A DNA stretch of 35,167 nucleotides from Pyrinomonadaceae bacterium (lineage in GTDB: Bacteria > Acidobacteriota > Blastocatellia > Pyrinomonadales > Pyrinomonadaceae). Numbering within the stretch: the first letter of the stretch is position 1; the number at the start of each line of letters is the position of its first letter. This document shows, one piece after another, positions 12,354 through 34,654 of the stretch. The stretch is from contig JAUZFQ010000082.1 in assembly GCA_030838445.1 (NCBI GenBank), forward strand, positions 1-35,167, read 5' to 3'. The notes below the pieces were generated by a model. The model saw nothing but the letters and a program-made list of their open reading frames with translations. It searched no databases and had not been told where the DNA came from. The position numbers were made by a program, and so were the translations under genes.

Positions 12354-12426
12354 GGCCAGGTAGCTCAGTTGGTAGAGCACCTGACTGAAAATCAGGGTGT
12401 CGGCGGTTCGACTCCGTCCCTGGCCA
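12354..12426 (+). tRNA. tRNA-Phe (anticodon GAA)
   Basis: The 73-nt cloverleaf is complete: acceptor GGCCAGG pairs with CCTGGCC, D-arm GCTC/GAGC, anticodon stem CCTGA/TCAGG with loop CTGAAAA (anticodon GAA), variable GTGTC, and T-arm GGCGG/CCGTC (one G-U pair) with loop TTCGACT. The discriminator base is A. The 3' CCA is not encoded, as TCA follows. Confidence 0.97.
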
Positions 12427-12691: not shown

Positions 12692-12719
12692 CGCAAAAAA
12701 AAACTGCTCTGTGGTAATA
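12692..12719 (+). promoter_or_regulatory. ECF-type promoter-like element, copy 1
   Basis: CGC followed by nine A (12695-12703), TGCTC, then GGTAATA (12713-12719). The CGC to GGTAATA distance is 21 bp, identical to copy 2 at 20010-20037. It lies about 190 bp upstream of the secreted protein gene at 12909. It is the probable target of the sigma factor at 18802-19923. Confidence 0.6.
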
Positions 12720-12759
12720 AGCCGCGCCGCTCGCCCTCTACACCGGTAAGGCAGTCAAG

Positions 12760-12798
12760 TGCGACGCGCGAACCTCTTGAGAGGAACGGACGGTCGCA
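12760..12798 (+). other. Structured 5' leader of the secreted-protein gene
   Basis: In the inferred leader, TGCGAC (12760-12765) can pair with GTCGCA (12793-12798), enclosing a hairpin CCTC-TTGA-GAGG (12773-12784). Another small stem, GAAGC/GCTTC, lies at about 12835-12852. A regulatory role is possible; it does not fit a riboswitch class I know. Confidence 0.3.
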
Positions 12799-12908
12799 AG
12801 CCTGATCGCAAAATTTTCGGGGCGTCGGCCTTCGGAAGCATGACACGGCTTCTCGTCCACGCTTCAAATTAATAACCGTTCATTCTTTGCTAAAGGAGAC
12901 TTCAAGCC

Positions 12909-13904
12909 ATGCGTTACCTCACCCAACTCTCTCGCGCTATCGTCGCCGCGCTCGTCCTCGCCGTCGCTCTCTCCGCGTCCATCACCGCGTCGGCACAGAC
13001 GGTCGTCTACGATGCGGTTAACGACTTCTCAACCGAAATCTCAACCGGCGTCTGGTCATACGGCATGACGACCACGCGCGGCTCACAATTTTCTAATTAC
13101 ACACATCCGTATCTGGATTTCTACCATCCCCCGCTTGCTCGCGGCCTCACCATGTGGAACATGCAGGGGTTCCCCGTAGAGTCCGCGGCGTATGTCGTTC
13201 ATAACGGGACGGGCGCTGGAGTCCAGTATTACCAGACGGTCGCGCACTCGGTCGGGATACTGAACTTGCATCCCGGCGCGGCAGGCGAGAACAGCGTTGT
13301 GCGCTGGACTGCACCGGCCGCCGGGATGTATCAGATCAAGGGTCGCTTCGTCAGCATTGACCGCGGCGTACCGATTCAAGGCCCCTCGGCCGATGTCGCC
13401 GTGCTGCACAACTCCGGCATCAATATCTTTAGCAGCGAACTCGACCACTACGGCGATCAAAGGGTGTTCACCCTCTACGTCAACGTCGCGGTGGGCGACA
13501 CAATTGATTTCTCCGTCGGCTACGGCACAAGCGCGCACTGGGACAATATCTTCGACAGCACGGGCTTGTCCGCTACGATCAAGCCGTTTGAAATCAACGG
13601 GCGGCTCACGGACGATTTTGGAAACGGCGTCGCCGGCAGGGAGATCAGGTTAGAGTTCGGCACGCAATGGATTTCGACGATGACCGACTCTGATGGTAGA
13701 TACAGCTTCAACGGCCCGATGGTCGGGACTAGCTACATCGTCAGGGCGGTAATCACGGATTGCGAGCGCAGGCGCTTCCGGTTTACTCCTGAGACCTACT
13801 CCTTCCCGTCCCTCAACGAACCGCAGACCGCCAACTTCGGCATGACTACCATCAAGTGTCCGCCGAGAACGATTTGCCGGGAAGAGCCGCCCTGCCCGCT
13901 GTAA
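12909..13904 (+). CDS. Secreted protein with carboxypeptidase regulatory-like domain
   Basis: The 331-residue product starts with a clear signal peptide (about 1-29, hydrophobic core AALVLAVALSASITA, cleavage near ASA-Q). The middle (about 35-220) is a beta-rich domain of unknown function beginning VYDAVNDFST. The end (about 225-315) reads GRLTDDFGNGVAGREIRL, then SDGRYSFNGPMVGTSYIV, a carboxypeptidase regulatory-like (transthyretin-type) beta sandwich often found in secreted surface proteins. The short tail is Cys- and Pro-rich. AAGGAG lies about 10 bp upstream of the ATG. The gene has an ECF-type promoter-like element and a long leader, and ends at a strong terminator. The role is probably extracellular or envelope; no enzyme motif is seen. 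Confidence 0.75.
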   Translation: MRYLTQLSRAIVAALVLAVALSASITASAQTVVYDAVNDFSTEISTGVWSYGMTTTRGSQFSNYTHPYLDFYHPPLARGLTMWNMQGFPVESAAYVVHNGTGAGVQYYQTVAHSVGILNLHPGAAGENSVVRWTAPAAGMYQIKGRFVSIDRGVPIQGPSADVAVLHNSGINIFSSELDHYGDQRVFTLYVNVAVGDTIDFSVGYGTSAHWDNIFDSTGLSATIKPFEINGRLTDDFGNGVAGREIRLEFGTQWISTMTDSDGRYSFNGPMVGTSYIVRAVITDCERRRFRFTPETYSFPSLNEPQTANFGMTTIKCPPRTICREEPPCPL

Positions 13905-13972
13905 AATGCGCTAGTCCGATGTGAGTCGCATTCGGCGCGGCAGCAAGAATAGTTCATCGTTTAATCATCGAG

Positions 13973-14021
13973 CGAGGCAGTTGTCTTGAAAAATCTTCTT
14001 CAAGACAACTGCCTCGTTTAA
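13973..14021 (+). terminator. Strong intrinsic terminator with 18-bp perfect stem
   Basis: CGAGGCAGTTGTCTTGAA (13973-13990) is perfectly inverted at 13999-14016 around an 8-nt loop, followed by TTTAA. It separates the secreted protein gene from the CHAT-TPR gene. Confidence 0.85.
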
Positions 14022-14115
14022 TGTTTCCGAGCGCGAAGTGGCAAGCGGCGCTTTAATTGCAAATGTGTTACCGGAAACATACAATCCACGCGTTCCCAAG
14101 TGGAGGTTTCCTCTA

Positions 14116-17097
14116 ATGCCTCGCCTTAACATCAAACTCACTACGGCGTTGATCCTCGCGCTCTATCTCGTTCCTGCCTGTTGCTTCGCACAACAACCGA
14201 CCATCTCTCCGCCGCCTGCGGCGTCCACTCCTGCTGCTGCTGTCTCCTCGTCGTCTTCGCAAACGCCGCCCGCTAATGTTCAGTCAAAAGCTATCGAAGA
14301 TTTCGCGTCGGCTCTCATCTCGGCGTCCACGGAAGAAGAACGCCAAACTCTCCTGCGCGACAAAAAAGAGTTAGTCACAATAGAACTCCGACAGGTTGTG
14401 CACGCGCGCGGCGACCGCGAGCGAGAGGCAGGGCATGCGGCGCAATCGTTTCTCATTTATCAACTCGCCCGACAGATTGCCGGGCGGATTAAAGACATGG
14501 CCGGAGAGGCGCACGCGCTCGAAGAGATCGCGCTGGCCTATTACGAACGCGACGAATATGACGCGGCGATGAGCGCCTTTGAGGAGACGCTGCGCCTTGA
14601 GTCGCAACTGAGGAACGTCCGCAAAGTGGCGGGCACGCTCAACCAGATCGGCATGGTGCATCGCGCCCGTGGCGAATACCCGCAGGCGATTGAGAGTTAT
14701 GCGAAAGCGCAGGCGGTCAACGAGCCGTTGGGCGATCAGAAAGTTTTGATCCAGACGCTCATCAACCTTGGGATCGTCTATCGCCAGAAGGGCGATTACG
14801 AAGCGGCGTTGAACAGTTACCAGCAGGCTTTGAAAGTGCAGGAGGCTCTGGGCGACAAAGGCAGTCTCGCCCGTCTGTTCAACAGCATCGGCAACGTCTA
14901 CTGGTCGCAGGGCAACTACGCGCAGGCGATAGAACATTTTCAAAAGGGACTCAAGCTGGCGGAAGAGATAAAACAAACGCGCACCGTCTCCACTCTGCTC
15001 AATAATCTCGGCGAGTCTTACGCGCTGGCGGGCGACCCGGAAACCGCGCTCTCCTACATGCGCCGGAGCATGGACATCTCCGCAGCCAATCAAGACAAGC
15101 GGCAACTGGCCAGCGTGCTCGACGCGATGGGAAGCGTCGAGCGTCGGCGGGGCGCGACGGCGCGTGCGCTTGAGTCTTATCAGAAGAGTTTGCAGTTGCG
15201 CGAAGAGTTGAAGGACAAGGCCGGTATCTCGGAAGCATTGGGACGCATCGCGCTGGTGCGTCACATGCAGGGCGAAGAGGCGGAGGCGTTGCGGTCGGCT
15301 GAACGCGCGGCGGCCATCGCCAAAGAGATCGGGAAGCGAGAGGTCTTCTGGCGGGCGCGTGCGGTGGCCGGTGAAGCTCATCGTGCGCTTGATCAGACGA
15401 CGGAGGCTCGACTCGCTTTCGACGAAGCCATCGCCGCGATAGAAGATTTGCGCCGACAGGTCGCGGGCGGGGAAGAGAGCCAGCAACGTTATTTTGAAGA
15501 CAAAGTTTCGCCTTACTACGACATGATCGAGTTGCTCGTGCAGGTCGGGAAACCCCACGACGCGCTCGTCTATGCCGAACGCGCCAAGGCGCGCGTGCTC
15601 TTAGACGTGCTGGGGCGCGGGCGGCGCGACGTGAACAAGCACATGACCGCCCCGGAGCGCGAGCGGGAGTTGAAGTTAAGGAGCGAGCTATTCGCGCTCA
15701 ACGCGCAGGTGCAGCGGGAAGGCGCGCGCTCTGAAGTTGATCCGGCGCGTCTCTCCGCCTTGCAGGCGCGGCTGGAAGCGGTGCGGTTGGACTACGACGG
15801 ATTCCAGACGAGCCTGTATGCCGCACACCCCGAGCTGAAAGTGCAGAGGGGCGAAGCGCAGCCTCTCACCACCGAACAACTCTCTGCACTCCTGCCCGAC
15901 ACGGACACAGCCTTCGTTGAATTTGCGGTGACGAAAGAACAAACGTTCGTCTTTGTTCTGACGGCTCGCGCGGTGAAAAGTTCCGCGCGTCAAATCAATG
16001 CTTCAACACGCGTCTCGCCCCAAGTGATGCGGCCGCCGGACGTAGACTTGAACGTGTACCGGCTGCCTGTCACTGCCGCCGCGCTGGCTGAGCGAGTCGA
16101 ACGCTTTCGCACGCAGTTGGCGCGCAGAGACATCTTGTTCGGCGTAGAAGCGCGCACCCTCTACGACCTCTTGCTGAAACCCGCCGAGGGGCAACTGCGC
16201 GGTAAAAAAACGCTGGTCATCGTGCCGGACGGAGAATTGTGGGAGCTACCCTTTCAGGCTTTGCAGCCCGCCCCCGCGCGTTACCTCGTCGAAGATCAAG
16301 CCATCTCTTATGCGCCTTCCTTGAGCGTGCTGCGGGAAATGACGAGGCGCGGGCGCAGCTTAACGGCGACCGCCGCGAAATCTTTACTGGCTATCGGTAA
16401 CCCCGCGCTCGTTGAAGCGACGGTCGCGCCTGCCCGCGTCGCTTTGCTCGGCGACGCTGTTGCGCCGTCGCTGCCCGAAGCGGAACTTCAAGTCAAAGCT
16501 CTGGGACAACTCTACGGCGCGAGCCGGAGCAAGATTTACGTGGGCGCGGAAGCGCGTGAGGAGCGTGTCAAGACCGAGGCGGGCAACTATCAAGTTATTC
16601 ATCTCGCCACGCACGGCGTCTTGAACGACGCCAGCCCGATGTATTCATACGTCATGCTCGCGCGCGAACCACGCATGCGCGCCGGTGGGGAAACAATCGA
16701 GGATGGGTTGCTCGAAGCGTGGGAGTTGATGAACATGGACTTGAAGGCCGAGATGGTTGTGCTGTCCGCGTGCGAAACGGCGCGCGGGCGCGTCTCGTCC
16801 GGCGAAGGCATGATCGGGCTGGCGTGGGCGCTCTTCGTCGCAGGCAGCCCGGTGACGGTCGTCAGCCAGTGGAAAGTCGAATCCGCTGGCACGACCGAAC
16901 TGATGCTCGTCTTTCATCGCAACTTGCAGGCGCAACCGCCCCGCGGACGCGAAGCAACCACGCCTCACATGTCGAAAGCCGAAGCACTGCGCCGCGCCGC
17001 TCTCTCTCTGCTCCGCAGCGAGAAATACTCGCATCCGTTTTACTGGGCAGGGTTCGTGATGATCGGCGACGGCGGCATCAAGTCAGGGATGAAATAG
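14116..17097 (+). CDS. Secreted CHAT-TPR (caspase-fold) protein
   Basis: The 993-residue product starts at ATG 14116 (GGAGG 9 bp upstream) with a signal peptide ending near CFAQQ; a GTG at 14038 in frame is rejected because it would bury that signal. A Pro/Ser/Thr-rich stretch precedes at least six tetratricopeptide repeats (about residues 105-430, for example GEYPQAIESYAKA and GDYEAALNSYQQA), then a helical linker. The C-terminal CHAT domain (about 640-990) has both caspase-clan catalytic residues: His833 in HLATHG and Cys886 in LSACETARG. CHAT proteins are caspase-like cysteine peptidases or scaffolds regulated by their repeats. Export to the periplasm is predicted, which is unusual for a cell-death-type protease. 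It converges on the anti-sigma gene with a 28-bp gap. Confidence 0.9.
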   Translation: MPRLNIKLTTALILALYLVPACCFAQQPTISPPPAASTPAAAVSSSSSQTPPANVQSKAIEDFASALISASTEEERQTLLRDKKELVTIELRQVVHARGDREREAGHAAQSFLIYQLARQIAGRIKDMAGEAHALEEIALAYYERDEYDAAMSAFEETLRLESQLRNVRKVAGTLNQIGMVHRARGEYPQAIESYAKAQAVNEPLGDQKVLIQTLINLGIVYRQKGDYEAALNSYQQALKVQEALGDKGSLARLFNSIGNVYWSQGNYAQAIEHFQKGLKLAEEIKQTRTVSTLLNNLGESYALAGDPETALSYMRRSMDISAANQDKRQLASVLDAMGSVERRRGATARALESYQKSLQLREELKDKAGISEALGRIALVRHMQGEEAEALRSAERAAAIAKEIGKREVFWRARAVAGEAHRALDQTTEARLAFDEAIAAIEDLRRQVAGGEESQQRYFEDKVSPYYDMIELLVQVGKPHDALVYAERAKARVLLDVLGRGRRDVNKHMTAPERERELKLRSELFALNAQVQREGARSEVDPARLSALQARLEAVRLDYDGFQTSLYAAHPELKVQRGEAQPLTTEQLSALLPDTDTAFVEFAVTKEQTFVFVLTARAVKSSARQINASTRVSPQVMRPPDVDLNVYRLPVTAAALAERVERFRTQLARRDILFGVEARTLYDLLLKPAEGQLRGKKTLVIVPDGELWELPFQALQPAPARYLVEDQAISYAPSLSVLREMTRRGRSLTATAAKSLLAIGNPALVEATVAPARVALLGDAVAPSLPEAELQVKALGQLYGASRSKIYVGAEAREERVKTEAGNYQVIHLATHGVLNDASPMYSYVMLAREPRMRAGGETIEDGLLEAWELMNMDLKAEMVVLSACETARGRVSSGEGMIGLAWALFVAGSPVTVVSQWKVESAGTTELMLVFHRNLQAQPPRGREATTPHMSKAEALRRAALSLLRSEKYSHPFYWAGFVMIGDGGIKSGMK

Positions 17098-17125
17098 GAA
17101 GCCGGAAACTGCATTTGCCTCAAAC

Positions 17126-18601
17126 CTAGCGAACACTCTTTAACAACTTGCGTGCGACGGGCGAGCGCGGATTTTGTTTGACCAATTTCTCTAACTCGTC
17201 TCCGGCTTCGTCCAACAGTCCCGCTTTGGCATAGAGCACGCCGAGCGCGAGATGCGAGTTCGGGTTAAGTGCGGCAAACGATTTCAACTCGTCGAACGTC
17301 CGCGCGTCGAGCACTCGAAACTTCGCTTGCGGTGCGGTCGGCGTGGGCGAAGTGATCTCGCGCCCGTCAGGTTCGACGGCGGTCACTTGCCAGAAGTAAG
17401 TCGCGCCGCGCTCAAGCGCGATTGGCGGCGTCCATTCGGTCGCCGTCAGTTTCTCGCTCTGCGCTACCTGTTTGAAATCGGCGTTGACGATGGCAACGGT
17501 ATAGGAAGCCGCACCCGCCAGCGCGTGCCAGCGCAGCACGGGTCGCTGTTCGCGCAAGATTTTGCCGACGGGCGAGACGAGCGCAAAGGGCACGTCGCCC
17601 GCGCCGCCGTCGCCGCCCATCAACACGCCGCCCGCGCCGTTCCTGAGCGAGTCGAGCGAGCGCGGCGTCTGCACGCTCCCGGTTCGCAGCGTTTGCCCGA
17701 CGAGATTCCGCACCGCGGGCGGCAATTCTTCGAGGCCGCGCACATTGCCGCGCCGGTCAAACGCCACTTCCACACCACCGTCGAGGAGCGCGAAGTCGAA
17801 CGTCGCAGGCGCAGTTGAAGGACGCGTTGTTGACGACGGTGGACGCCGCGACGCGGGCGGCGTGATGATAGACTTGGAAGAGTTTCTTGTTGACGAAGCT
17901 ACGTCCTCTTGCGCCGACGTTGATGTGGAATTTTCTACCGCAACTTTATTCTCAACCGCCACGTTACCCGGTGCTGCTCCGGTCGCTTGCGCGGGCGCGT
18001 TCAGGTTCTCGTCGCGCCCGTTCGGTTTGACCTGCGCAAGTTGATCTTGACCCGCGCCGTTGTCCGGCCGCGTCGCAAACCAAGCTCCCAATAAGACGAC
18101 GGCGACCACGACGGCAGCCGCAATCGCATTGGGGAGCGACAATCCGAAAGAGGCGACGGGGTTGAAGGACGCCACCCTTTGCCAGAGTGACTTTGACACG
18201 GCGGCGCGGGCAGGCGCGGTTGCGTTGGCAGGCGTCGTTTCTGAGACTGCGGCAATCGTTTGATAGCGTCGCAAGTCAACTGCGTCACCAGCGCACGCGC
18301 GGCAGACGGCGAGATGGCTCTCGGCGATTTCGCGTTCAACGTCGTCTAAGCTGTCGTCAACGAAGGCTGCGAGTTGCGCGTAAGGCAAGTGCTCCTGCTC
18401 ATCTTCGGGGGCATTGAAATTATTGAAACCGGCGAGCAGGTTGGCGAACGCACCTTGCACATCAACCGCGCGTTCGAGCCGCGCGCGGCACTCGGCACAC
18501 TCGTCGGCATGCGCGTGCGCGGAGAGAAGTTCCTCGCCGCTCAGCCGCCGCCGGCGGTAGCGTTCAATCGCCTCCGCCGAAATGTGCTCGAAAGTTCGCA
18601 T
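17126..18601 (-). CDS. Anti-sigma factor with two zinc motifs, membrane helix and periplasmic TPR end
   Basis: The 491-residue protein has two cytoplasmic zinc-binding anti-sigma motifs of HxxxCxxC type, at His31-Cys35-Cys38 and His96-Cys100-Cys103, so it likely holds a sigma factor inactive. A single membrane helix lies at about 158-177. It is followed by a low-complexity Ser/Thr/Ala/Pro stretch and an outer beta-sandwich-like segment (LVSPVGKILREQRPVLRWHALAGA and FWQVTAVEPDG, fibronectin III-like). The C terminus (about 430-491) is a TPR-like pair of helices. The gene is just downstream of the sigma gene on the same strand, so they probably form a switch that senses an envelope signal. An ECF-type promoter-like element lies about 100 bp upstream of its start. 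Confidence 0.85.
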   Translation of the reverse strand: MRTFEHISAEAIERYRRRRLSGEELLSAHAHADECAECRARLERAVDVQGAFANLLAGFNNFNAPEDEQEHLPYAQLAAFVDDSLDDVEREIAESHLAVCRACAGDAVDLRRYQTIAAVSETTPANATAPARAAVSKSLWQRVASFNPVASFGLSLPNAIAAAVVVAVVLLGAWFATRPDNGAGQDQLAQVKPNGRDENLNAPAQATGAAPGNVAVENKVAVENSTSTSAQEDVASSTRNSSKSIITPPASRRPPSSTTRPSTAPATFDFALLDGGVEVAFDRRGNVRGLEELPPAVRNLVGQTLRTGSVQTPRSLDSLRNGAGGVLMGGDGGAGDVPFALVSPVGKILREQRPVLRWHALAGAASYTVAIVNADFKQVAQSEKLTATEWTPPIALERGATYFWQVTAVEPDGREITSPTPTAPQAKFRVLDARTFDELKSFAALNPNSHLALGVLYAKAGLLDEAGDELEKLVKQNPRSPVARKLLKSVR

Positions 18602-18700
18602 TTCTCCGTTCTTAATCTTTCATGTAGAGGGCTGTGGCGTCCGGGCAAAGGGCAAATGACACCTCTCCCGTCAGTGTTGTAGAAGCGGATTGACGGCTGA

Positions 18701-18728
18701 TATTACCACTGCGCCGAATAATTTTTTG
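18701..18728 (-). promoter_or_regulatory. ECF-type promoter-like element, copy 3 (leftward)
   Basis: On the minus strand a run of six A (18722-18727) and TTATT is followed by GGTAATA (18701-18707), matching copies 1 and 2 in order and approximate spacing (A-tract shifted by about two bases). It would drive the anti-sigma gene, starting about 100 bp upstream of its ATG. Confidence 0.5.
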
Positions 18729-18801
18729 TCGTTCCGTTCTCTCATTGCTCTCTCGTTTCTCACTTTGCGCCATCAAACTTCGACCGGCGCGGCAAGCATC
18801 T

Positions 18802-19923
18802 TCAATATCCCTTCATGCGTCGCATCAGGCGTTCACGCGCCGACTTACGCAGGTTGATAACTTGCTGCCGCGCCAGTCCGAGCAAGGCGGCGATGCGTTT
18901 GTCGTCCAGCGGAAGTTCAGCCCACAATGCAGCGAACGCCTGCGCCGTCATGTTCAATGCGTCGGCCACTGCCTGTAACGTGGCGACGCCCGTCACCGTC
19001 CACAATTCAATGATGCCGTTGCCGTGTTCGTCGCGCATGTTGAGCAGGAGCGCGGCACGCTGGCGCGGCGGCAATTCGATGATCTCATCCCACAGACGCT
19101 TGAGGTAGAGCCGCCGCTCGGTTTCGACGGCGGGGTTGGGGCGCGCGTCGGCCAACTGCGCGTCAGGTTTGTCTTCGCGCCCGCCCGTATCGTCAATCTC
19201 CAACGCCTCGTCCGTGATGCCCCACCAATTGGCGACGACACTCGTCAAGAGATCAATTTCAATCGCGCCGCCCGTCCAAGTGAAGATAGCGTGCAACAGT
19301 TCGACCGCTCGCTTGGGGTCGCGCAGGTCGCCCGACGCTCCGGCTTCGCGCTCGAACACACGCGGGTCTTGGCGCAACTGTTGGAGACGCCGCTCCGCTC
19401 CGGTCGCTCTGACGGAAGCTGTGACGGAAGCAGTCACGTCGCCGACGCGCACCGCCGTCGAAGACGCGTCGCCGCGCCAAGCCTTCAAGCCGCCAAGCCA
19501 CGCGCCGTTCTCCGCCTCCCACAAGGCGAAGTCCGGGCGATGCGTTAAGAGATAGCGCAGGCCGTTCTTCAGACGACGGCGTTGCGGATACTTGCGACTG
19601 GTGTAGCGGTCGAAGGTGTTGAAAGCGGCGGCGGCGACGTAGGCGTTGAAATCTTTGATGGGACGCGAGGCAGAATCTTTGCGAAGGCTGTGCAATCTCT
19701 GCATCAACTGCACCATCACCTCGCCGTAAACGTCTTCGGCCTCTGCACGCGTATCGGTGTGCCGTGAGTTTCCAGACCAGCCCTGACTCTTGTAGCCGAC
19801 AATTTTCTTGACGGTCGGCGCGGCGTAGTCGGCGATGAGCGAGGCGAGCGCGCGCTCGCCTTCGGCCTCGCTCGCAGCGTGCACGAAGGGAACTAACAGC
19901 GGATCAATCTGCTCACTTTCCAT
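18802..19923 (-). CDS. ECF-like sigma-70 family factor with large insert
   Basis: The 373-residue protein has a sigma-2-like region near residues 28-120 (AEDVYGEVMVQLMQRL, then FNAYVAAAAFNTFDRYTSRKYPQ) and a sigma-4-like region at the end (LWDEIIELPPRQRAALLLNMRD; then WAELPLDDKRIAALLGLARQQVINLRKSARERL, a helix-turn-helix). Between them are about 150 residues of unrelated sequence, much more than in ordinary ECF factors (about 190 residues total). The insert may be a regulatory domain. It faces the binding-protein gene divergently and is followed by the anti-sigma gene, so it is probably the regulator of the GGTAATA elements in this window. Sigma assignment rests on the two conserved regions. 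Confidence 0.82.
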   Translation of the reverse strand: MESEQIDPLLVPFVHAASEAEGERALASLIADYAAPTVKKIVGYKSQGWSGNSRHTDTRAEAEDVYGEVMVQLMQRLHSLRKDSASRPIKDFNAYVAAAAFNTFDRYTSRKYPQRRRLKNGLRYLLTHRPDFALWEAENGAWLGGLKAWRGDASSTAVRVGDVTASVTASVRATGAERRLQQLRQDPRVFEREAGASGDLRDPKRAVELLHAIFTWTGGAIEIDLLTSVVANWWGITDEALEIDDTGGREDKPDAQLADARPNPAVETERRLYLKRLWDEIIELPPRQRAALLLNMRDEHGNGIIELWTVTGVATLQAVADALNMTAQAFAALWAELPLDDKRIAALLGLARQQVINLRKSARERLMRRMKGY

Positions 19924-20009
19924 CGCGCTCGCCGTAAAGAAGTGTCGTTTGCTGAACTACTAACTTCTTCCCATCTTCCATAACTGAACCGGCCGGACTT
20001 TTGCACCTC

Positions 20010-20037
20010 CGCAAAAAAAATTGCTCCCCCGGTAATA
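20010..20037 (+). promoter_or_regulatory. ECF-type promoter-like element, copy 2
   Basis: CGC, eight A (20013-20020), TTGCTC, then GGTAATA (20031-20037). It shares the 21-bp CGC to GGTAATA spacing with copy 1. It lies about 190 bp upstream of the binding-protein gene and between it and the divergent sigma gene. Confidence 0.6.
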
Positions 20038-20048
20038 TTCTCCCTCCA

Positions 20049-20164
20049 CACGCCTCTTCTCAAACAGTTGCCGACAAACCGCCCGGCACACAGGTCGGAT
20101 ACCGGTAGCCGTTTGAATGTGAGGCGTGCGCGTCCGAGACTAATTGTGAGCGGGCGGTTTTGTC
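20049..20164 (+). other. Pseudoknot- or switch-like 5' leader RNA
   Basis: Helix 1: CACGCCTC (20049-20056) plus TCAAAC (20060-20065) pairs with GTTTGA (20111-20116) plus GAGGCGTG (20121-20128), 14 pairs with a small internal loop. Helix 2: GACAAACCGCCCG (20073-20085) pairs with CGGGCGGTTTTGTC (20151-20164), 13 pairs with one bulge. The helices cross, so they form a pseudoknot or are mutually exclusive. A third stem, CCGAC (20071-20075)/GTCGG (20094-20098), competes inside. It resembles a riboswitch architecture of no class I recognise. Confidence 0.5.
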
Positions 20165-20224
20165 AGGCGAGCTTTCAAGTAACTATGGATTTCTACTCAA
20201 ACCAGTAAAGGAAAATTAAAGACC

Positions 20225-21280
20225 ATGCGACGACACTCTTACCTCCCCAGCCTGCTTTCGCTTCTCGTTTGCTTCTTCTTCACCGGAGTTGTCTCCCCTG
20301 ACAACGCCCGCGCAGCCGTTCAGAGTTCTTGCGTCCAATATGGAGCGTTCAGCAAAAACGTCTCCTACATCGTTGCCAAGCATGAAGGCTTCTTCGAACG
20401 CGAGGGGCTGACGGTTTGCTACAATCAGGTCAGGTCTTCAGACCAGCAGTACGCCGACCTCTTCGCAGGCCGCTACGACATTATCTCCGCCGCGTCCGAC
20501 ACCGTCATCACGCGCAAGGTCAACCTGAATCTTCCGCTCTCGATGATCGCCGGGCTGGAAATGAATAACGATCAGGTGCTCGCCGTCAACAAGGCGCGCG
20601 GCATCAACTCCTTTGAAGACCTGCGCGGCAAACCAATCGCGGTTGACGCGCCCGACACGGGCTTCTCCTTCCTTCTGCGAAAGATTCTCGCCGAGCACGG
20701 ACTGCTGCTAGAGAACGGCGATTATACGCTTCAACCCATCGGCGGGGTCGCGCTCCGCTACGCCGCGTTGCAAGCCGGACAGACGGCGAGCGGCCAGCCG
20801 GTCTATGCCTCGATGATCAATTACCCGTTCGCGGCGCAACTGCACGAACCCGTCACGGTTCTGGCGCGCGCCGAAGATTACGTCTTCCCGTATCAGGGCG
20901 GCGCGTTCGCCGTCCGGCACGACTATTCGGCCAGCCACCCCGACACGATCACACACTTCCTGCGCGCGATGATTGATGGCGGCGAGTTTGCGCGTCGCCC
21001 GCGTAACCGCGCGCTCGTCATCGGCTACATCGCCGCCGAGTTGGGTGTGACCAACGACATCGCCGAACGCGAGTTGAGTGCGTCGCTCGACCGTCAAACC
21101 GGCGAGAACCACAAGGCTAAAATTGACAAGCAAGCACTCATCGGCACAATCGAACTCCGGCAGGAGTTCAACGGCTTCACCGCGCCGCTCGGCGACATCA
21201 ACCAACTCGTCCAGCCCTGTGAGAATTGTCTCTACGACGACCGATTCTGGAAGGCGGCGATAGGCAATTCAAACAATTGA
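20225..21280 (+). CDS. Secreted NMT1/THI5-type substrate-binding protein
   Basis: The 351-residue product has an N-terminal signal peptide (about 1-31, core LLSLLVCFFFTGVV). The rest resembles periplasmic NMT1/THI5-like solute-binding proteins (SsuA/ThiY type): SYIVAKHEGFFEREGL, DLFAGRYDIISAASDTVI, and the domain hinge SFEDLRGKPIAVDAPDTG. Such proteins deliver pyrimidine, sulfonate or similar ligands to an ABC transporter, but no permease or ATPase gene is nearby, so a lone sensor or an orphan binding role is possible. AAAGGAAAATTAAAGACC precedes the ATG, with AAAGGA about 12 bp away. The gene has an ECF-type promoter-like site, a structured leader, and a strong terminator. Confidence 0.8.
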   Translation: MRRHSYLPSLLSLLVCFFFTGVVSPDNARAAVQSSCVQYGAFSKNVSYIVAKHEGFFEREGLTVCYNQVRSSDQQYADLFAGRYDIISAASDTVITRKVNLNLPLSMIAGLEMNNDQVLAVNKARGINSFEDLRGKPIAVDAPDTGFSFLLRKILAEHGLLLENGDYTLQPIGGVALRYAALQAGQTASGQPVYASMINYPFAAQLHEPVTVLARAEDYVFPYQGGAFAVRHDYSASHPDTITHFLRAMIDGGEFARRPRNRALVIGYIAAELGVTNDIAERELSASLDRQTGENHKAKIDKQALIGTIELRQEFNGFTAPLGDINQLVQPCENCLYDDRFWKAAIGNSNN

Positions 21281-21390: not shown

Positions 21391-22713
21391 CTAGCGAATG
21401 ACGGAGACTTCGAGGCCGGAACTGAGTCCGGGCAGGGCGCGTGGGTTCTGTTTGTTACGGGTTTCTTTACGGACGCGGTTACTGACGTAATCGAACAGTT
21501 CGCCCGCTGTGACGACTTTGTCCGTGTTCGTGTCCGCCAGACCGCGCAAGCCTTCGAGCAAAGCCCAGGTGAAGACGCCGTGACCGCCGCCCCAGAGCGT
21601 GCTTTCGGCGGAGGTTTCGTTGACATCCGAAGAAGTCAAAACGGCGCGACCTTCCTGGTTGAAAAGCTCTTTGGCGAGAAAGTCGTTGGCGTTGTTGCCG
21701 CCGAGCACGAGTTGACCCGCGTCGCTTACCTGAGCCGGTTTTTTGCTGCCGCCTGGGCTGGCGGGCTTTTCGTTGAGGAGGAGTCCGCGTTGTCCGGCGG
21801 CATCGGGGGATGGTTTGGGAAGGATTTTCGTCCCGCTCACCCCCGCGCTGTGACAGGTGTCGAGCAGGAACACGGCGCGTTTCGCCAGCAGCTTTTGGTC
21901 AATCATCTGTTTCAGTTCGATCATCGGCAGCGCGGTGTTTTTCAAATCCGCAACTTTAGAATCGTGAACCAGATAATATAGATTTCGCTTGTCGTAAGGG
22001 TCAGGCGAACCGTGACCGGCGAGAAAAAACAGAATCATGTCCGTCGAGGCCGCACGGGTCAGAAACCGCGCCAGCGAATCGCGCACCGCGCTGAGAGTGG
22101 CGCGTTCGTTGGTCAGAAACAAGATGTCGTTCGAGTTGAAACCGCCCTGCGTCAGCAGTTGAAAGAGAGCCTCCGCGTCTTTGTCGGCAAACGCCAGATC
22201 GGTCAAGCCCGCGTCGTTGTTTTTGTATTCGGAAACGCCGATGATGACGGCGAATTTGCGCCCTGAAAATTTCAGCGGGTCTTTGACGGCGACTTGCTTC
22301 GCGTCGGTCAGCATCACAAACGAAGCGAAATAACGTGTGCCGTCTTTAGTTTTGGCTTCGATCTCAAAGACGTTTTTGTTGCCGTCGAGTTTGAAACCGA
22401 CGAGACGGTTCAAGTCGCAGAGCAGCATTTTGCCAGACGAAGCAGCGCGTTGATGACAGACGGTTGTGGCCGCTTTGGTGTTGACGACGACTTTGATGTC
22501 GCTCCAATTCATCATGGCGGCATACGGGTCTGCGATCCAGAATTTGACGATGTTGACGTCCGTGCGGGCGATATAATTATTGACTTTGCGAAGCTGTCCT
22601 GTGTTCAGTTCGGGCAGTTCGAGCGCAAACGGAGTCCGGTCTTGCCCGAACGCCGCCGTCGAAATAAACATCAACGCTGACAGCGCGAAAATTTTAGTTA
22701 AGTTATGACACAT
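21391..22713 (-). CDS. Secreted caspase-like (C14) protein
   Basis: I start at the ATG at 22713, giving 440 residues beginning with a signal peptide (hydrophobic segment to about residue 24, AFGQ); a longer in-frame start at 22770 only reads through simple repeat DNA. An N-terminal domain (about 25-145) precedes the caspase fold: KFAVIIGVSEYKNNDAGL at 153-170, catalytic His234 in LAGHGSPD and catalytic Cys287 in FLLDTCHSAG. Both dyad residues are intact, so protease activity is plausible. The C-terminal part (TSSDVNETSAES, HGVFTWALLEGL) is also typical of prokaryotic caspase homologues. No Shine-Dalgarno sequence is clear. It converges on the binding-protein gene and lies near a second caspase-clan protein (CHAT), so the neighbourhood is rich in this class. 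Confidence 0.88.
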   Translation of the reverse strand: MCHNLTKIFALSALMFISTAAFGQDRTPFALELPELNTGQLRKVNNYIARTDVNIVKFWIADPYAAMMNWSDIKVVVNTKAATTVCHQRAASSGKMLLCDLNRLVGFKLDGNKNVFEIEAKTKDGTRYFASFVMLTDAKQVAVKDPLKFSGRKFAVIIGVSEYKNNDAGLTDLAFADKDAEALFQLLTQGGFNSNDILFLTNERATLSAVRDSLARFLTRAASTDMILFFLAGHGSPDPYDKRNLYYLVHDSKVADLKNTALPMIELKQMIDQKLLAKRAVFLLDTCHSAGVSGTKILPKPSPDAAGQRGLLLNEKPASPGGSKKPAQVSDAGQLVLGGNNANDFLAKELFNQEGRAVLTSSDVNETSAESTLWGGGHGVFTWALLEGLRGLADTNTDKVVTAGELFDYVSNRVRKETRNKQNPRALPGLSSGLEVSVIR

Positions 22714-22730
22714 CGGATTTGAGGGATGAA

Positions 22731-22783
22731 GGATGAGGGATGGATGAAAGACATTGCTTGTTGTTTTCATTCATCCCTCATCC
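22731..22783. repeat. Simple-word inverted repeat between M48 and caspase genes
   Basis: The 19-base arm at 22731-22749 (GGATGAGGGATGGATGAAA) is inverted at 22765-22783 with one mismatch and a 15-base loop. It is built from GGATGA words, like the other intergenic repeats here. It may form a hairpin in the transcript between the genes. Confidence 0.7.
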
Positions 22784-28110: not shown

Positions 28111-28293
28111 CCTATAGTTGATCGCGCGAGTCGAACGGAAAGGGCTTGGAACGAGGTGTTTGAGCGACGTTTGTAGCAACGTTTCGGTGTTCTGAAACCT
28201 CAAACCTTGCGCCATCCGATTCAATCCTGTGCAGGTCAATATATCCCCCGGTCGTTTTTACAGAAAAGTTTACGAGTCATACGCGATACTGAA

Positions 28294-30381
28294 ATGAACA
28301 TTAGCAACCGCCCCGCCCGCAAAAGTTTTATCGTCGCTCTCGTCCTCGCGTCGCTGTGCCTCGGCAACTTCGGCGGGTTGACGGCGCGCGGGCAATTTGT
28401 GCCGGGCGGGAAGCGCGACGCGGCTGCTAGAAAGTCGGGCGCGCAGACGACAAGCGCGACGGGCGGCAAAGTCAAAACCCCCGGCGCGCCGCTGACGAAG
28501 TTCGGCGCGCGTCTCGACAAACTCTCGCCCGACCTCGCGCAACAGTTAGTTCGTTCCGTCAGCAACAAGAAAATCTTTCGCGTCATCTGCCGGTTCAACG
28601 CTCCGGCCGGGAGCGGCGTCCAAGCCGTCTACACGCACCCGCGCGTGCGCGTCAACTACGCCTTCCAAAACTCCAGCTTTGTGAGCGCGGAGATGCCCGC
28701 GAGCGACGTGTTCGAGTTGACGAGGTTCGCGGAGATTTCTTACATCACGCCCGACCGCGAGGTGCGCACGCTCGGCCACGTCTCGGCGACGACCGGCGCA
28801 GACCTCGTGCGCACACAGGCGACCGGCGGACTCGACGGCACGGGCATCGGCATCGCCGTGCTTGATTCGGGCATCAAGCGCAGCCACAAATCTTTCCGCG
28901 ACGGGCGCACGACCGACAGCGACGTGCGCGTCGTGGCCGAAGAGGATTTCGTCAACTACGGCAACGCCTCCGACCAGTACGGGCACGGCACGCACGTCGC
29001 CTCGCTCGCGGGCGGCAACGGGCGCATCGCCAACGCCGCTTACGTCGGCATCGCGCCGAACGCCAACATCGTCAACCTCCGCGTGCTGGACAACGAGGGG
29101 CGCGGCTCGGTCTCGTCCGTGTTGCGCGCGCTCGATTGGGTGATGACGAATCGCGCGCTCTACAACATCCGCGTCGTCAACATGAGCCTCGGCATGCCCG
29201 CGGTTGACTCTTACAAGAACGATCCCGTCTGTCTTGCGGTGCGGCGTCTGGTGGACGCAGGGATCGTCGTCGTCGCGGCGGCGGGCAACGACGGCAAGTC
29301 CGACGACGGGCAAAAAGTTTACGGGCAGATACACTCGCCGGGCATAGAGCCTTCCGCGATCACCGTCGGCGCGACGAACACCTTCGGCACGAACGAGCGC
29401 GGCGACGATTCGGTCGCCACCTACAGTTCGCGCGGCCCCACACGCGGCAGCTACTTGGACGCGGCGGGCGAACGCCATTTCGACAACCTGATCAAACCCG
29501 AACTCGTCGCCCCCGGCAACAAGTTGATCGCGGCGCAGGCCGAGGGCGAGTGCCCCGCGGGCGTGGATGATTGCGGCGCGAAGAATTACCTGCTCACGCG
29601 GAATCCGCAGATGGAGGCGGGCGTGAGCGCGGACGACAGCCGCGCGATGATGTTCATGAGCGGCACTTCGATGGCCGCCCCGCAGGTGGCAGGCGCGGCT
29701 GCGCTGCTCCTGCAAGTCAACCCGCGACTTACGCCAAACTTGATCAAAACGATCTTGATGTACACGGCGCAGCCGCTCTCCGGCTTCAACATGTTCGAGC
29801 AGGGCGCGGGGCAACTCAACATCGAGGGCGCAGTCCGTCTCGCCAAACTCGTGCGCCGCGACCTGACGAGCGGCACTCCGCTCGGCGCGCCGTTGCTCAC
29901 GGGCGCAGCCCCGACGCCGCGCACCACCATCGCCGGGCACACGTTCACATGGGCGCAAGGCGTCGTCCTCAACTACACATTCGCCACCGGACTTGACCTC
30001 ATCACCGATTACCAGCGCATCTACGACCTCGGCGTGATCATCAGCGACGGCGTGATCATTAGTGACGGCGTGATTATCAGCGATAACATCCTGCGGCGAA
30101 ACCCGGCCTTCCTCGGCGACGGCGTGATCATCAGCGATAACATCCTGACGAGCGACGGCGGCATGCTCGGCGGCGGGACGCCTTACGTCGCCGTCGGCGT
30201 GATCATCAGCGACGGCGTGATCATCAGTGACGGGCTGCTGCGCGACGATGGCGTTATTATCAGCGACGGCGTTATTATCAGCGACGTTTTATTGAAGGCT
30301 CTCAGGACGATGGCCGACGGTGACCGCACGAGTTACGCGCCCGTGGTGGTTGACACCGGCCAGGACTATCGAGGCTACTAA
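28294..30381 (+). CDS. Secreted subtilisin-like (S8) peptidase with GVIISD repeats
   Basis: The 695-residue serine protease starts at ATG 28294; the upstream in-frame extension (from 28207) lies before the signal peptide. That peptide (about 1-32, FIVALVLASLCLGNFGGL) is followed by an inhibitor-like prodomain (about 85-160, ending near ISYITPDREVRTLG). The catalytic triad is intact: Asp191 (IAVLDSGIKRSH), His231 (YGHGTHVASLAG), Ser459 (MSGTSMAAPQVAG), with the oxyanion Asn in AAGNDG at 331. The last 115 residues carry eight copies of a short unit GVIISD in clusters, encoded by nearly identical DNA. This type of tail is recognised in acidobacterial S8 proteins but of unknown role. A GNAT gene follows with about 70 bp gap. 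Confidence 0.93.
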   Translation: MNISNRPARKSFIVALVLASLCLGNFGGLTARGQFVPGGKRDAAARKSGAQTTSATGGKVKTPGAPLTKFGARLDKLSPDLAQQLVRSVSNKKIFRVICRFNAPAGSGVQAVYTHPRVRVNYAFQNSSFVSAEMPASDVFELTRFAEISYITPDREVRTLGHVSATTGADLVRTQATGGLDGTGIGIAVLDSGIKRSHKSFRDGRTTDSDVRVVAEEDFVNYGNASDQYGHGTHVASLAGGNGRIANAAYVGIAPNANIVNLRVLDNEGRGSVSSVLRALDWVMTNRALYNIRVVNMSLGMPAVDSYKNDPVCLAVRRLVDAGIVVVAAAGNDGKSDDGQKVYGQIHSPGIEPSAITVGATNTFGTNERGDDSVATYSSRGPTRGSYLDAAGERHFDNLIKPELVAPGNKLIAAQAEGECPAGVDDCGAKNYLLTRNPQMEAGVSADDSRAMMFMSGTSMAAPQVAGAAALLLQVNPRLTPNLIKTILMYTAQPLSGFNMFEQGAGQLNIEGAVRLAKLVRRDLTSGTPLGAPLLTGAAPTPRTTIAGHTFTWAQGVVLNYTFATGLDLITDYQRIYDLGVIISDGVIISDGVIISDNILRRNPAFLGDGVIISDNILTSDGGMLGGGTPYVAVGVIISDGVIISDGLLRDDGVIISDGVIISDVLLKALRTMADGDRTSYAPVVVDTGQDYRGY
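30031..30288 (+). repeat. GVIISD repeat array in subtilase C terminus
   Basis: Eight copies of the codon block for GVIISD (consensus DNA GGCGTGATCATCAGCGAC) occur as 3+1+2+2, separated by short spacers such as NILRRNPAFLG. Copies differ mostly at third bases, implying recent slippage or selection on the protein sequence. Confidence 0.9.
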
Positions 30382-31585: not shown

Positions 31586-34500
31586 ATGAGCAAGGACAGG
31601 GGCGGGGAGGAGCACGGGATTGCGAGTTTGAGCGAAGCGCGCACCCGCGCGCAGGCCGCGCGCGAGTCGCTTGAGCGCGAGTTGGAAAACGTGCGCCTGC
31701 TGCTCGATCAGGGTCTCACCTCCGAAGTCTTGAAGCGGGCGGCCGTGCTCACACGCGCCGCGCGGCAGGACGCGACGCTCCTAGCGCGCACGCGCTGTCT
31801 GCTCTCGGCGGCGTTGGAGATGCAGGGGCGTTACCGCGAGTCGCTCGAAGCGGTGCAGATGTACGAGCGGCCGGAGGAGCGCGCCAGGTGCGACCCCGCC
31901 TCCTCGATTTATCTCGGCGTCCAACTCGGCCTCGCCTACAACTACACGGGCGACCACCCGAAGGCCGTCGCGATCCTGAACGGCACGTTGCGCGAGGCGA
32001 CGGAGCACGGCGGCGGCGCGCAGGTCGGCTCGGTCTACGTCGCGTTGGCGCGCGTCTATCGCACCATCAACGAGTACACCATCGCGCGCGACCACGCGCA
32101 GAAGGCGCTCGAACATTTTCGCGGCACGGGCGACTGGCGCGGGCTGGCCGAAGCCTACTTCGCCATCGCGCTCGCCGAACTTTTTGAAGGCAGCTACGAG
32201 CCTGCCCTGAACAACCTTGAGCAGTCTCTAAAACTCGTCGGCGATCATCCCGCGCCCTATCTCCTCGGCAAAATCTACACCAACATGGCGGGCGTCTGCT
32301 GGTTTCTCAAGCGGCCGCACGACGGCATCAAATATTTAGAGACCGCGATCAGTTACTACGAGCGCACCGAGCACAAGGCCAACGCCGCCGACGGCTACAA
32401 CAACCTCGGCATCCACCTGATCCTCGTCGGCGAATGGGATCGCGCGCAGGAGTCGCTCGAACGTGCTCTCACGCTCGCCTCCGAGACGGACAAGCGCGGC
32501 GAGCAGACGATGATCCTCGACTCGCTCGGCGAGTTGTTGATGTTGCGCGGCGATCTGGAAGAGGCCGAGAAGTATCTCGAACACGCCGTCGAACTCTCGC
32601 TCGAACACGGCAACAAATGGTATGTCGGTCAAGCCCTGCGCACGCTCGGTCGTTGTCATCTCGCGATGAACGAGTTGGAACGCGCGCTCGCCGACGGCAC
32701 GCGCTCGCTCGAATACGCCGAACGCATCGGTGATCGACAGGCCATCTGCGACTCGCGCCTGTTGCTCGGCGAGACGCACCTGCGGCGCGACGACCTCGCC
32801 CGCTGCGAGGAGCAACTCAACCCGGTGCTCGGCGAGACGGCGGACACGTCGGCCGACCTCGCCGTCTCGGGCGAGGCGCAGCGTCTCCACGGTCTGCTCT
32901 CGCTCGCGCGCGGCCAGGCCGTGCCCGCCGCGCAACACTTCGGCCGCAGCGTCTCCATCTACGAAATGCTCGGCGACCGTTATCGCAGCGCGCGCTCGCG
33001 CTACGACCTCGGCCGCGCCTACGCCGCCGCGCAGCCCGAACGCGCGCACGAATGTCTCACGCGCGCCGCCGAGACTTTTCGTGAACTCGGCGCACGTCTC
33101 GATATCACCCGCGCCGAAGTTGCTTTAAGCGCGCTCGACCAAACTCACGTTGACGACGATGACAGCGGCGCGACTGACGCGACCGAGTCGCGCTTCGACG
33201 ACCTCACACATTTGATCCTGCTGCGACTGACCGACGCCGTTGCGTCGCGCGAATTGCTCCTGCGCGAACTCGCCGCCGTCATCTATCAGGAGACGGGCGC
33301 GCGCCAGATTTTGATCGCCGAGCCGGGTGAAGAGGAGCGCGACCGCGTGGTTGTGGCACACGGTTGGGCGGAGGGCGAGGGCGGGGAACTGCTGGAGCGT
33401 CTGCGGCGCGCGGAAGGCGCGGAAGAGAAGGAGCGCGTCGCGGGCGAACACCGTGCGGAGATCATCGAACTGCGCGCGACGAACGCACCGCCCGCCACTT
33501 TGCTCGTCTCACCGCCGGGGTCGGCCGCGTTGCCGGGCGGCGTCTCGCTCGCTCCGCTGCTGCGGATGGTCGAACTCGCACTGGACGTGTGCGCGTTTCG
33601 TGAGAAGTCGCGCGAAGGTCTCGACGGCGCGGAGCAATCCACGCTCGCCAGCCAGAGTTTCATGCCGGGTTTCATCCACTCGTCGCCTGCGATGACACGC
33701 CTTGTCGAAGAAGTCCACAAGATACGCTCCTCCGACGTGACCGTGTTGGTGACAGGCGAGTCGGGCACGGGCAAGGAACTCGTCGCCCGCGCCATCCACG
33801 CCCTCTCGTCGCGTCGCGCCAAAGTCTTCGTCCCCTTCAACTGTACGGCCGTCCCCAAGGAGTTGAGTGACGCTTACCTGTTCGGCTACCGGCGCGGCGC
33901 GTTCACGGGCGCGGTCTCGGACTCGCCCGGCGTCATTCGCTCGGCGGCGGGCGGGACGTTGTTTCTGGATGAGATCGGCGACTTGCCGCTGGACGTGCAG
34001 CCGAAGCTGTTGCGCTTCCTTCAAGAGGGTGAGATACAGCCACTCGGCGAGCAACGTCCGGCCAAGGTGGATGTGAGAATCATCGCCGCCACCAACAGCG
34101 ACCTCGAAGACATGTTGAAAGACGGACGCTTCCGCGAAGACTTATACTACCGTCTCAACGTCATCCGCCTGCGCGTCCCGCCGCTCAGGGAACGTCGTTC
34201 GGAAATCCCGACGCTCGTCAATCACTACATCGGCCACTACGCGCAGAAGTTCGGGCGCAGCGACATCCGCATCACGCCGGAGACGATAGACCTCCTGATG
34301 GTCTGCGACTGGCCGGGCAATATCCGCCAACTCGTAAACGAAATCCAACGCATCGTTGCCCGCGCCGAAGACGGCACTCTGATCACGCCAGACCACCTCT
34401 CGCCCGAACTCAAACGCACCTCCGCGCCCGTCTCCACGACGAACACGAACCTCGCCGCGTTCGGTTCGCCAACTCAGCACGCGGGGGAAAATCTCTCGCT

Positions 34501-34654
34501 CCCCGAAGCCGTGGAAGACCTCGAACGCCGCATGATCGCCGACGCCCTGCGCCGCCACAAATGCAACATCTCCCGCGCCGCACGCGAACTCGGAATCACG
34601 CGTCGCGGTCTCCAACTCAAACTCGGCCGCTACGCCATGAGCGCGACTTCCTGA
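31586..34654 (+). CDS. Sigma-54-dependent activator with N-terminal TPRs
   Basis: The 1022-residue regulator has TPR repeats over about residues 100-520, a GAF-like segment at about 545-680, then a sigma-54 AAA+ domain with Walker A GESGTGKE (Lys730), the sigma-54 contact loop GAFTGA (771-776) and Walker [11 protein letters not shown] (Asp795, Glu796). The C terminus is a Fis-type helix-turn-helix ([22 protein letters not shown]). GAFTGA intact means it can activate sigma-54 holoenzyme. The TPR sensor, rather than a receiver, suggests a protein or peptide signal. The sigma-54-like promoters at 27694 and 28096 lie in the same region, making their genes plausible targets. The start is ATG 31586, behind a G-rich ribosome-binding site. 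Confidence 0.95.

Follow-up and report, generated by a model that had tools for sequence, protein, structure and literature searches.

The window, by which we mean the whole 35,167-nt stretch of Pyrinomonadaceae DNA analysed here, carries a group of genes arranged around an ECF-like sigma factor (Table 1). Just downstream of the sigma gene, in the same orientation, is the gene for an anti-sigma factor, and convergent with these is the gene for a CHAT-TPR protein. An exported protein is encoded ahead of the CHAT-TPR protein, and a binding protein on the other side of the sigma gene. The CHAT domain is well recognized (PF12770, 3e-71); 21 homologues all keep His859 and Cys912, the His/Cys pair of a CHAT peptidase, and an N-terminal hydrophobic signal is found as well. 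Among 29 homologues of the anti-sigma factor the two His/Cys clusters vary little or not at all, and all 29 have a single central transmembrane segment. In 82 of 97 loci, a count that includes some duplicates, the anti-sigma gene adjoins the sigma gene in the same orientation, so that gene order provides the adjacent anti-sigma factor that is a hallmark of ECF systems. The order sigma, anti-sigma, convergent CHAT is repeated in many loci of the class. Judged from gene order and predicted topology, sigma factor, double-zinc-finger membrane anti-sigma factor and convergent exported CHAT-TPR protein are a module that recurs across the Acidobacteriota. A PADLOC search for known defence systems gave generic TPR and caspase matches only. 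A tRNA gene at 12354-12426, the only match when Rfam was searched for known structured RNA at the promoters, lies just upstream of the module and is a possible integration point.

Table 1. Features of the sigma factor locus, in window coordinates; promoter elements and transcription starts are predicted.
Feature	Position	Strand	Basis
Promoter site 1, CGC-A9-CTGCTCTGT-GGTAATA	12692-12719	+	read off window sequence
A9 tract at about -52 to -44, UP-element-like, promoter 1	12695-12703	+	A-then-T tract at fixed offset in relatives
-35 element GGTAATA, promoter 1	12713-12719	+	alignment of relatives, profile search
-10 element CCTCTA, promoter 1; start about 12747	12735-12740	+	same +22 offset from GGTAATA in relatives
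Exported protein of 331 aa with a weak CarboxypepD_reg match, nearest gene downstream of promoter 1	12909-13904	+	domain search
CHAT-TPR protein, N-terminal signal sequence	14038-17097	+	domain search, homologue alignment
Anti-sigma factor, two zf-HC2-like zinc-finger motifs, single TM (near residues 159-180), C-terminal part periplasmic	17126-18601	-	domain search, alignment
Promoter site 3, CAAAAAATTATTCGGCGCAGT-GGTAATA	18701-18728	-	read off window sequence
-10 element CTTCTA, promoter 3; start about 18673	18680-18685	-	profile and full-pattern searches
-35 element GGTAATA, promoter 3, serving anti-sigma gene	18701-18707	-	window sequence, profile searches
A6 tract (AAAAAATTATT), promoter 3, UP-element-like	18722-18727	-	window sequence, profile search
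ECF-like sigma factor, 373 aa, recognition helix RQQVINLRKSARERL	18802-19923	-	domain searches
Promoter site 2, CGC-A8-TTGCTCCCCC-GGTAATA	20010-20037	+	read off window sequence
A8 tract, promoter 2, UP-element-like	20013-20020	+	window sequence
-35 element GGTAATA, promoter 2	20031-20037	+	window sequence, profile search
-10 element CCTCTT, promoter 2; start about 20065	20053-20058	+	profile and full-pattern searches
Exported binding protein of NMT1/SsuA type, served by promoter 2	20225-21280	+	domain search

An A-tract followed by GGTAATA is found at three places in the window, all of them where the original prediction had put them. The three sites are real and far beyond chance. Four copies of GGTAATA are observed in the window for 0.35 expected, and A6-N5-16-GGTAATA has three occurrences there, against none in 100 shuffles. 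In the organism's own genome (a 4.56 Mb assembly, 84% complete) this pattern is found at the same three places only, with none in the control; the full three-part pattern is likewise confined to the window's three places, the control giving 1 match. The sites resemble each other less closely than had been claimed. A TGC-type middle is present at the same place in sites 1 and 2 and is missing from site 3, and the spacing, described as near-identical, is looser, with 9, 10 and 14 nt between the end of the A-run and GGTAATA. The window gene map agrees that the sites precede the secreted-protein, binding-protein and anti-sigma genes. The site at 20010 does lie in the divergent intergenic region of the sigma gene, but it faces the binding-protein gene and not the sigma gene. 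A small local regulon, also part of the original prediction, is supported by a pattern present only at this locus in the own genome and by targets that are anti-sigma and exported-protein genes.

The anatomy of the promoters was read from 21 intergenic sites (18 from relatives and the three of the window) anchored on GGTAATA without realignment. Upstream of GGTAATA there is A at -18 to -15 and T at -13 to -9. Downstream, C is found at +22 in 19 of the 21 sites, C at +25 in 20 and T at +26 in 18, and T also recurs at +18. This register is kept in loci outside the model (T+18 in 12/16, C+22 in 13/16, C+25 in 12/16). Variants of the -10 element run from CGTC to CAAC, those of the window being CNTCT, and the sigma/anti-sigma gap in relatives often contains an identical GGTAATA. 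Promoters of Mtb sigma-H have a -35 element from -34 and a -10 element at -11 to -9 (PMC6411747). Because GGTAATA and CNWCT fit this published ECF spacing, GGTAATA is in all likelihood a -35 element, with a -10 element, CNWCT(T/A), after a fixed 15-nt gap; this confidence covers the whole promoter assignment. Starts are therefore predicted about 34 nt downstream of the G that opens GGTAATA (Table 1). With GGTAATA as the -35 element, the A-tract occupies about -52 to -43 relative to the start, the usual place of UP elements, which suggests that it is UP-element-like. The original prediction, in which the A-tract is an upstream element and GGTAATA a -10-like box with the start 6-8 nt after it, was right that the pair is real and confined to the locus within the own genome, but is very improbable as a promoter model: bases at +22, +25 and +26 are conserved in fixed register past GGTAATA, this fixed -10 element 15 nt further on being the reason to reject GGTAATA as the -10 box, GGTAATA itself lands at canonical -35 spacing (PMC6411747), and the A-tract shifts and merges into the T-tract as a UP element would.

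The motif follows the sigma factor from genome to genome. A sequence-only profile, R1, was made from the sites of 20 relatives, among them some of the sites aligned above, with those of the window left out. In the window it finds the three sites and no others at E<=1, and in the own genome window sites 3 and 1 rank first and second. Site 2, at 10.8 bits, is a weak match and absent from the R1 whole-genome match list. Thirty genomes with the sigma factor have 16 R1 matches at E<0.01 that had no part in the training, and 20 relatives without it have none at this threshold (best 0.017). Two other candidates in the own genome were set aside. One (C279:983), apparently within coding sequence, keeps the -35/-10 register without an A-tract, and the other (C138:1633) has no GGTAATA box.

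The -35 letters are also associated with the recognition helix. The sigma/anti-sigma gap has [AG]GTAAT in 28 of 38 distinct pairs with a QQVIN helix versus 1 of 10 others (Fisher P=4e-4, kinship ignored). For GGTAAT the reverse strand of the gap served as a control and gave 0, with about 1.5 expected. Ten of the 38 QQVIN pairs are without an exact [AG]GTAAT, at least two of them having the close variant GCTAATA, and several non-QQVIN pairs have GGAATTTT and CGTCT instead of GGTAATA and CNWCT. R1 matches at E<0.01 found only in genomes with the sigma factor, together with this helix association, support the proposal that the motif is the recognition sequence of the adjacent sigma factor, and it is very probably the promoter read by that ECF-like protein. 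An operator for a separate DNA-binding regulator would be an improbable alternative. Co-occurrence of the motif alone does not distinguish the sigma factor from a linked regulator, but an operator accounts poorly for two elements at rigid ECF spacing, for -35 letters that change with the sigma factor's recognition helix, and for a conserved module that, by gene order in the relatives' loci, has no other regulator gene.

The sigma factor read as the partner of these promoters has an uncommon layout, with sigma-2, a long middle segment (weak RNAP-delta-like match) and an interrupted sigma-4. The window protein alone gives a weak match to TIGR02937 (sigma-70 ECF superfamily, 3e-9), under the curated cut-off. 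For 30 relatives, Sigma70_r2 is matched in 22 (best 1.2e-6) and Sigma70_r4_2 in 14, and the best Sigma70_r4 match is 2.3e-6; the sigma-2 plus sigma-4 of an ECF factor are thus seen across the relatives, the window protein being weak by itself. An early ECF hallmark was a linker of <50 residues between sigma-2 and sigma-4, whereas a later, narrower definition names sigma-2 plus sigma-4 (PMC8103513). In the window protein the match to sigma-2 stops near residue 85, with a conserved block reaching about 150, and sigma-4 starts near 270, so the middle segment, roughly 150 aa, exceeds that linker length. Within this segment, at residues about 205-245 of the sigma factor, a family profile matches the N-terminal domain of RNA polymerase delta (E 0.0014, five delta chains); a Pfam search gives no confirmation of it. 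At residues about 297-340 sigma-4 looks split, with about 40 residues separating the recognition helix from the LPPRQRAALLLN helix. The sigma factor occurs across the Acidobacteriota; a few records carry the labels Armatimonadota, Abditibacteriales or Acidimicrobiia. Regulons are larger in genomes that have several sigma paralogues or several motif copies (L121 and L127 in G078; L122-L124 and L134 in G088), where as many as 10 profile matches are seen at E<=1.

Which genes the motif serves was counted at a threshold of 1e-5 and within 1.6 kb, some of the sites having trained the profile. Of 69 anti-sigma genes, 30 have a site in front of them; for sigma genes the figure is 2 of 80 and for CHAT genes 3 of 46. 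Positive autoregulation of the sigma gene, an early though not universal ECF hallmark, is not seen in these counts. The expectation that the sigma factor would regulate its own gene failed, since the sigma gene seldom has a site and the feedback target is the anti-sigma gene; simple sigma-gene autoregulation was rejected. With the motif in front of the anti-sigma gene and rarely the sigma gene, the circuit looks like negative feedback via the anti-sigma factor joined to an exported-protein response. In relatives, many additional matches lie in front of genes whose products seem to begin with a signal peptide. For example, TolB-like, FG-GAP-like, subtilase-like, metallopeptidase-like and other targets were found, named by eye without a family search. 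The leaders of targets 1 and 2 gave no clear alignment to each other. The predicted leader of the binding protein (20065-20224) has a strong fold (-51 kcal/mol), and its inverted repeat, AACCGCCCG...CGGGCGGTTTT, is terminator- or attenuator-like.

Zinc-finger anti-sigma domains are common among ECF systems. E. coli RpoE-RseA and Mtb sigma-H share with the window system sigma-2 and sigma-4, an adjacent membrane-anchored anti-sigma factor and the -35/-10 spacing. Unlike canonical ECF factors, the window system has a -35 GGTAATA, a -10 CNWCT and a strong A-tract, along with the middle segment of about 150 aa, the interrupted sigma-4 and a motif that serves the anti-sigma and not the sigma gene. 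Early ECF hallmarks included an AAC-type -35 and a CGT-type -10 (PMC8103513). GGTAATA and CNWCT are different letters at canonical spacing; the claim that the motif does not match classical AAC/CGTC promoters is therefore right for the -35 letters, which depart from AAC, while the geometry is that of an ordinary ECF promoter.

ECF54 has carboxypeptidase, subtilase and CHAT proteins nearby and is described without an anti-sigma factor (PMC8999054). The window system is like it in the CHAT neighbour, to which the window adds a CarboxypepD_reg protein and a subtilase. Only CHAT is conserved as a neighbour, subtilase and CarboxypepD_reg being found in the window only, except for a subtilase in L064. 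The double-zinc-finger anti-sigma factor is conserved here, and because ECF54 is described without one, the window sigma factor is not filed under ECF54. In Type III-E CRISPR systems the Craspase TPR-CHAT protease (Csx29) cuts Csx30, the inhibitor of an ECF sigma factor, CASP-sigma (PMC10028731). Here too a TPR-CHAT protease, a sigma inhibitor and an ECF sigma factor are in one locus, with three copies of a motif in the locus. Unlike the cytoplasmic protease of Craspase, the window CHAT protein is exported, as the signal sequences of the CHAT proteins indicate, and the inhibitor is a membrane zinc-finger anti-sigma factor. Craspase systems have Cas7-11 and Csx30; no CRISPR genes were found among the large window ORFs examined. 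No description of the module or motif was found in the open-access papers searched; the sigma group may already be catalogued in the 2021 ECF reclassification.

A mechanism can be proposed for the module. The sigma factor would read the three promoters, those of the anti-sigma gene, the exported-protein/CHAT-TPR pair and the exported binding protein, and the membrane anti-sigma factor would hold it through a cytoplasmic zinc-finger domain. The exported CHAT-TPR protease might sense an envelope or extracellular cue and cut the periplasmic part of the anti-sigma factor, releasing sigma. The freed sigma factor would then transcribe the exported proteins and more anti-sigma factor, shutting off the response. 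That the CHAT-TPR protein is the site-1 protease of the anti-sigma factor is a tentative suggestion, made because of the shared compartment, conserved gene order, topology and the analogy to Craspase (PMC10028731). The promoters could equally belong to this sigma factor with the CHAT-TPR protein as an output or effector and not the releasing protease, for which the chance is not far below even. Promoter 1 precedes the exported protein and CHAT-TPR gene pair, and the site in L071 is likewise upstream of a CHAT-containing pair, as an effector would require; a site before only 3 of 46 CHAT genes goes against it, and the CHAT gene still adjoins the anti-sigma gene, with its product in the same compartment.

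What the comparison of sequences does support is the promoter structure, the restriction to genomes with the sigma factor, the helix match and the preference for anti-sigma and exported-protein genes, together with the gene order, the topology and an intact His/Cys pair in CHAT. The wider reading with the CHAT-TPR protein as protease would be an Acidobacteriota-wide system in which an exported caspase-like CHAT-TPR protein is the site-1 protease and a three-part sigma factor (sigma-2, delta-like winged helix, split sigma-4) reads GGTAATA, an envelope counterpart of Craspase/CASP-sigma; we consider it possible rather than probable. For an unusual sigma family, in a phylum where transcription has had little experimental study, the analysis provides a promoter code and a regulon that can be tested. 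The family is linked with a membrane anti-sigma factor and a conserved CHAT protease, so one can ask directly about a caspase-like envelope-to-transcription relay outside CRISPR.

Several other genes lie downstream in the window. The product of 21391-22770, near the module, has a caspase domain (Peptidase_C14) and a signal-like N-terminus, and is not conserved beside the sigma gene in relatives. The subtilase at 28207-30381 has a C-terminal run of GVIISDGVIISDG repeats. A TPR protein at 31586-34654, as read from the translation, has an apparent sigma-54-activator AAA+ domain and a C-terminal HTH.
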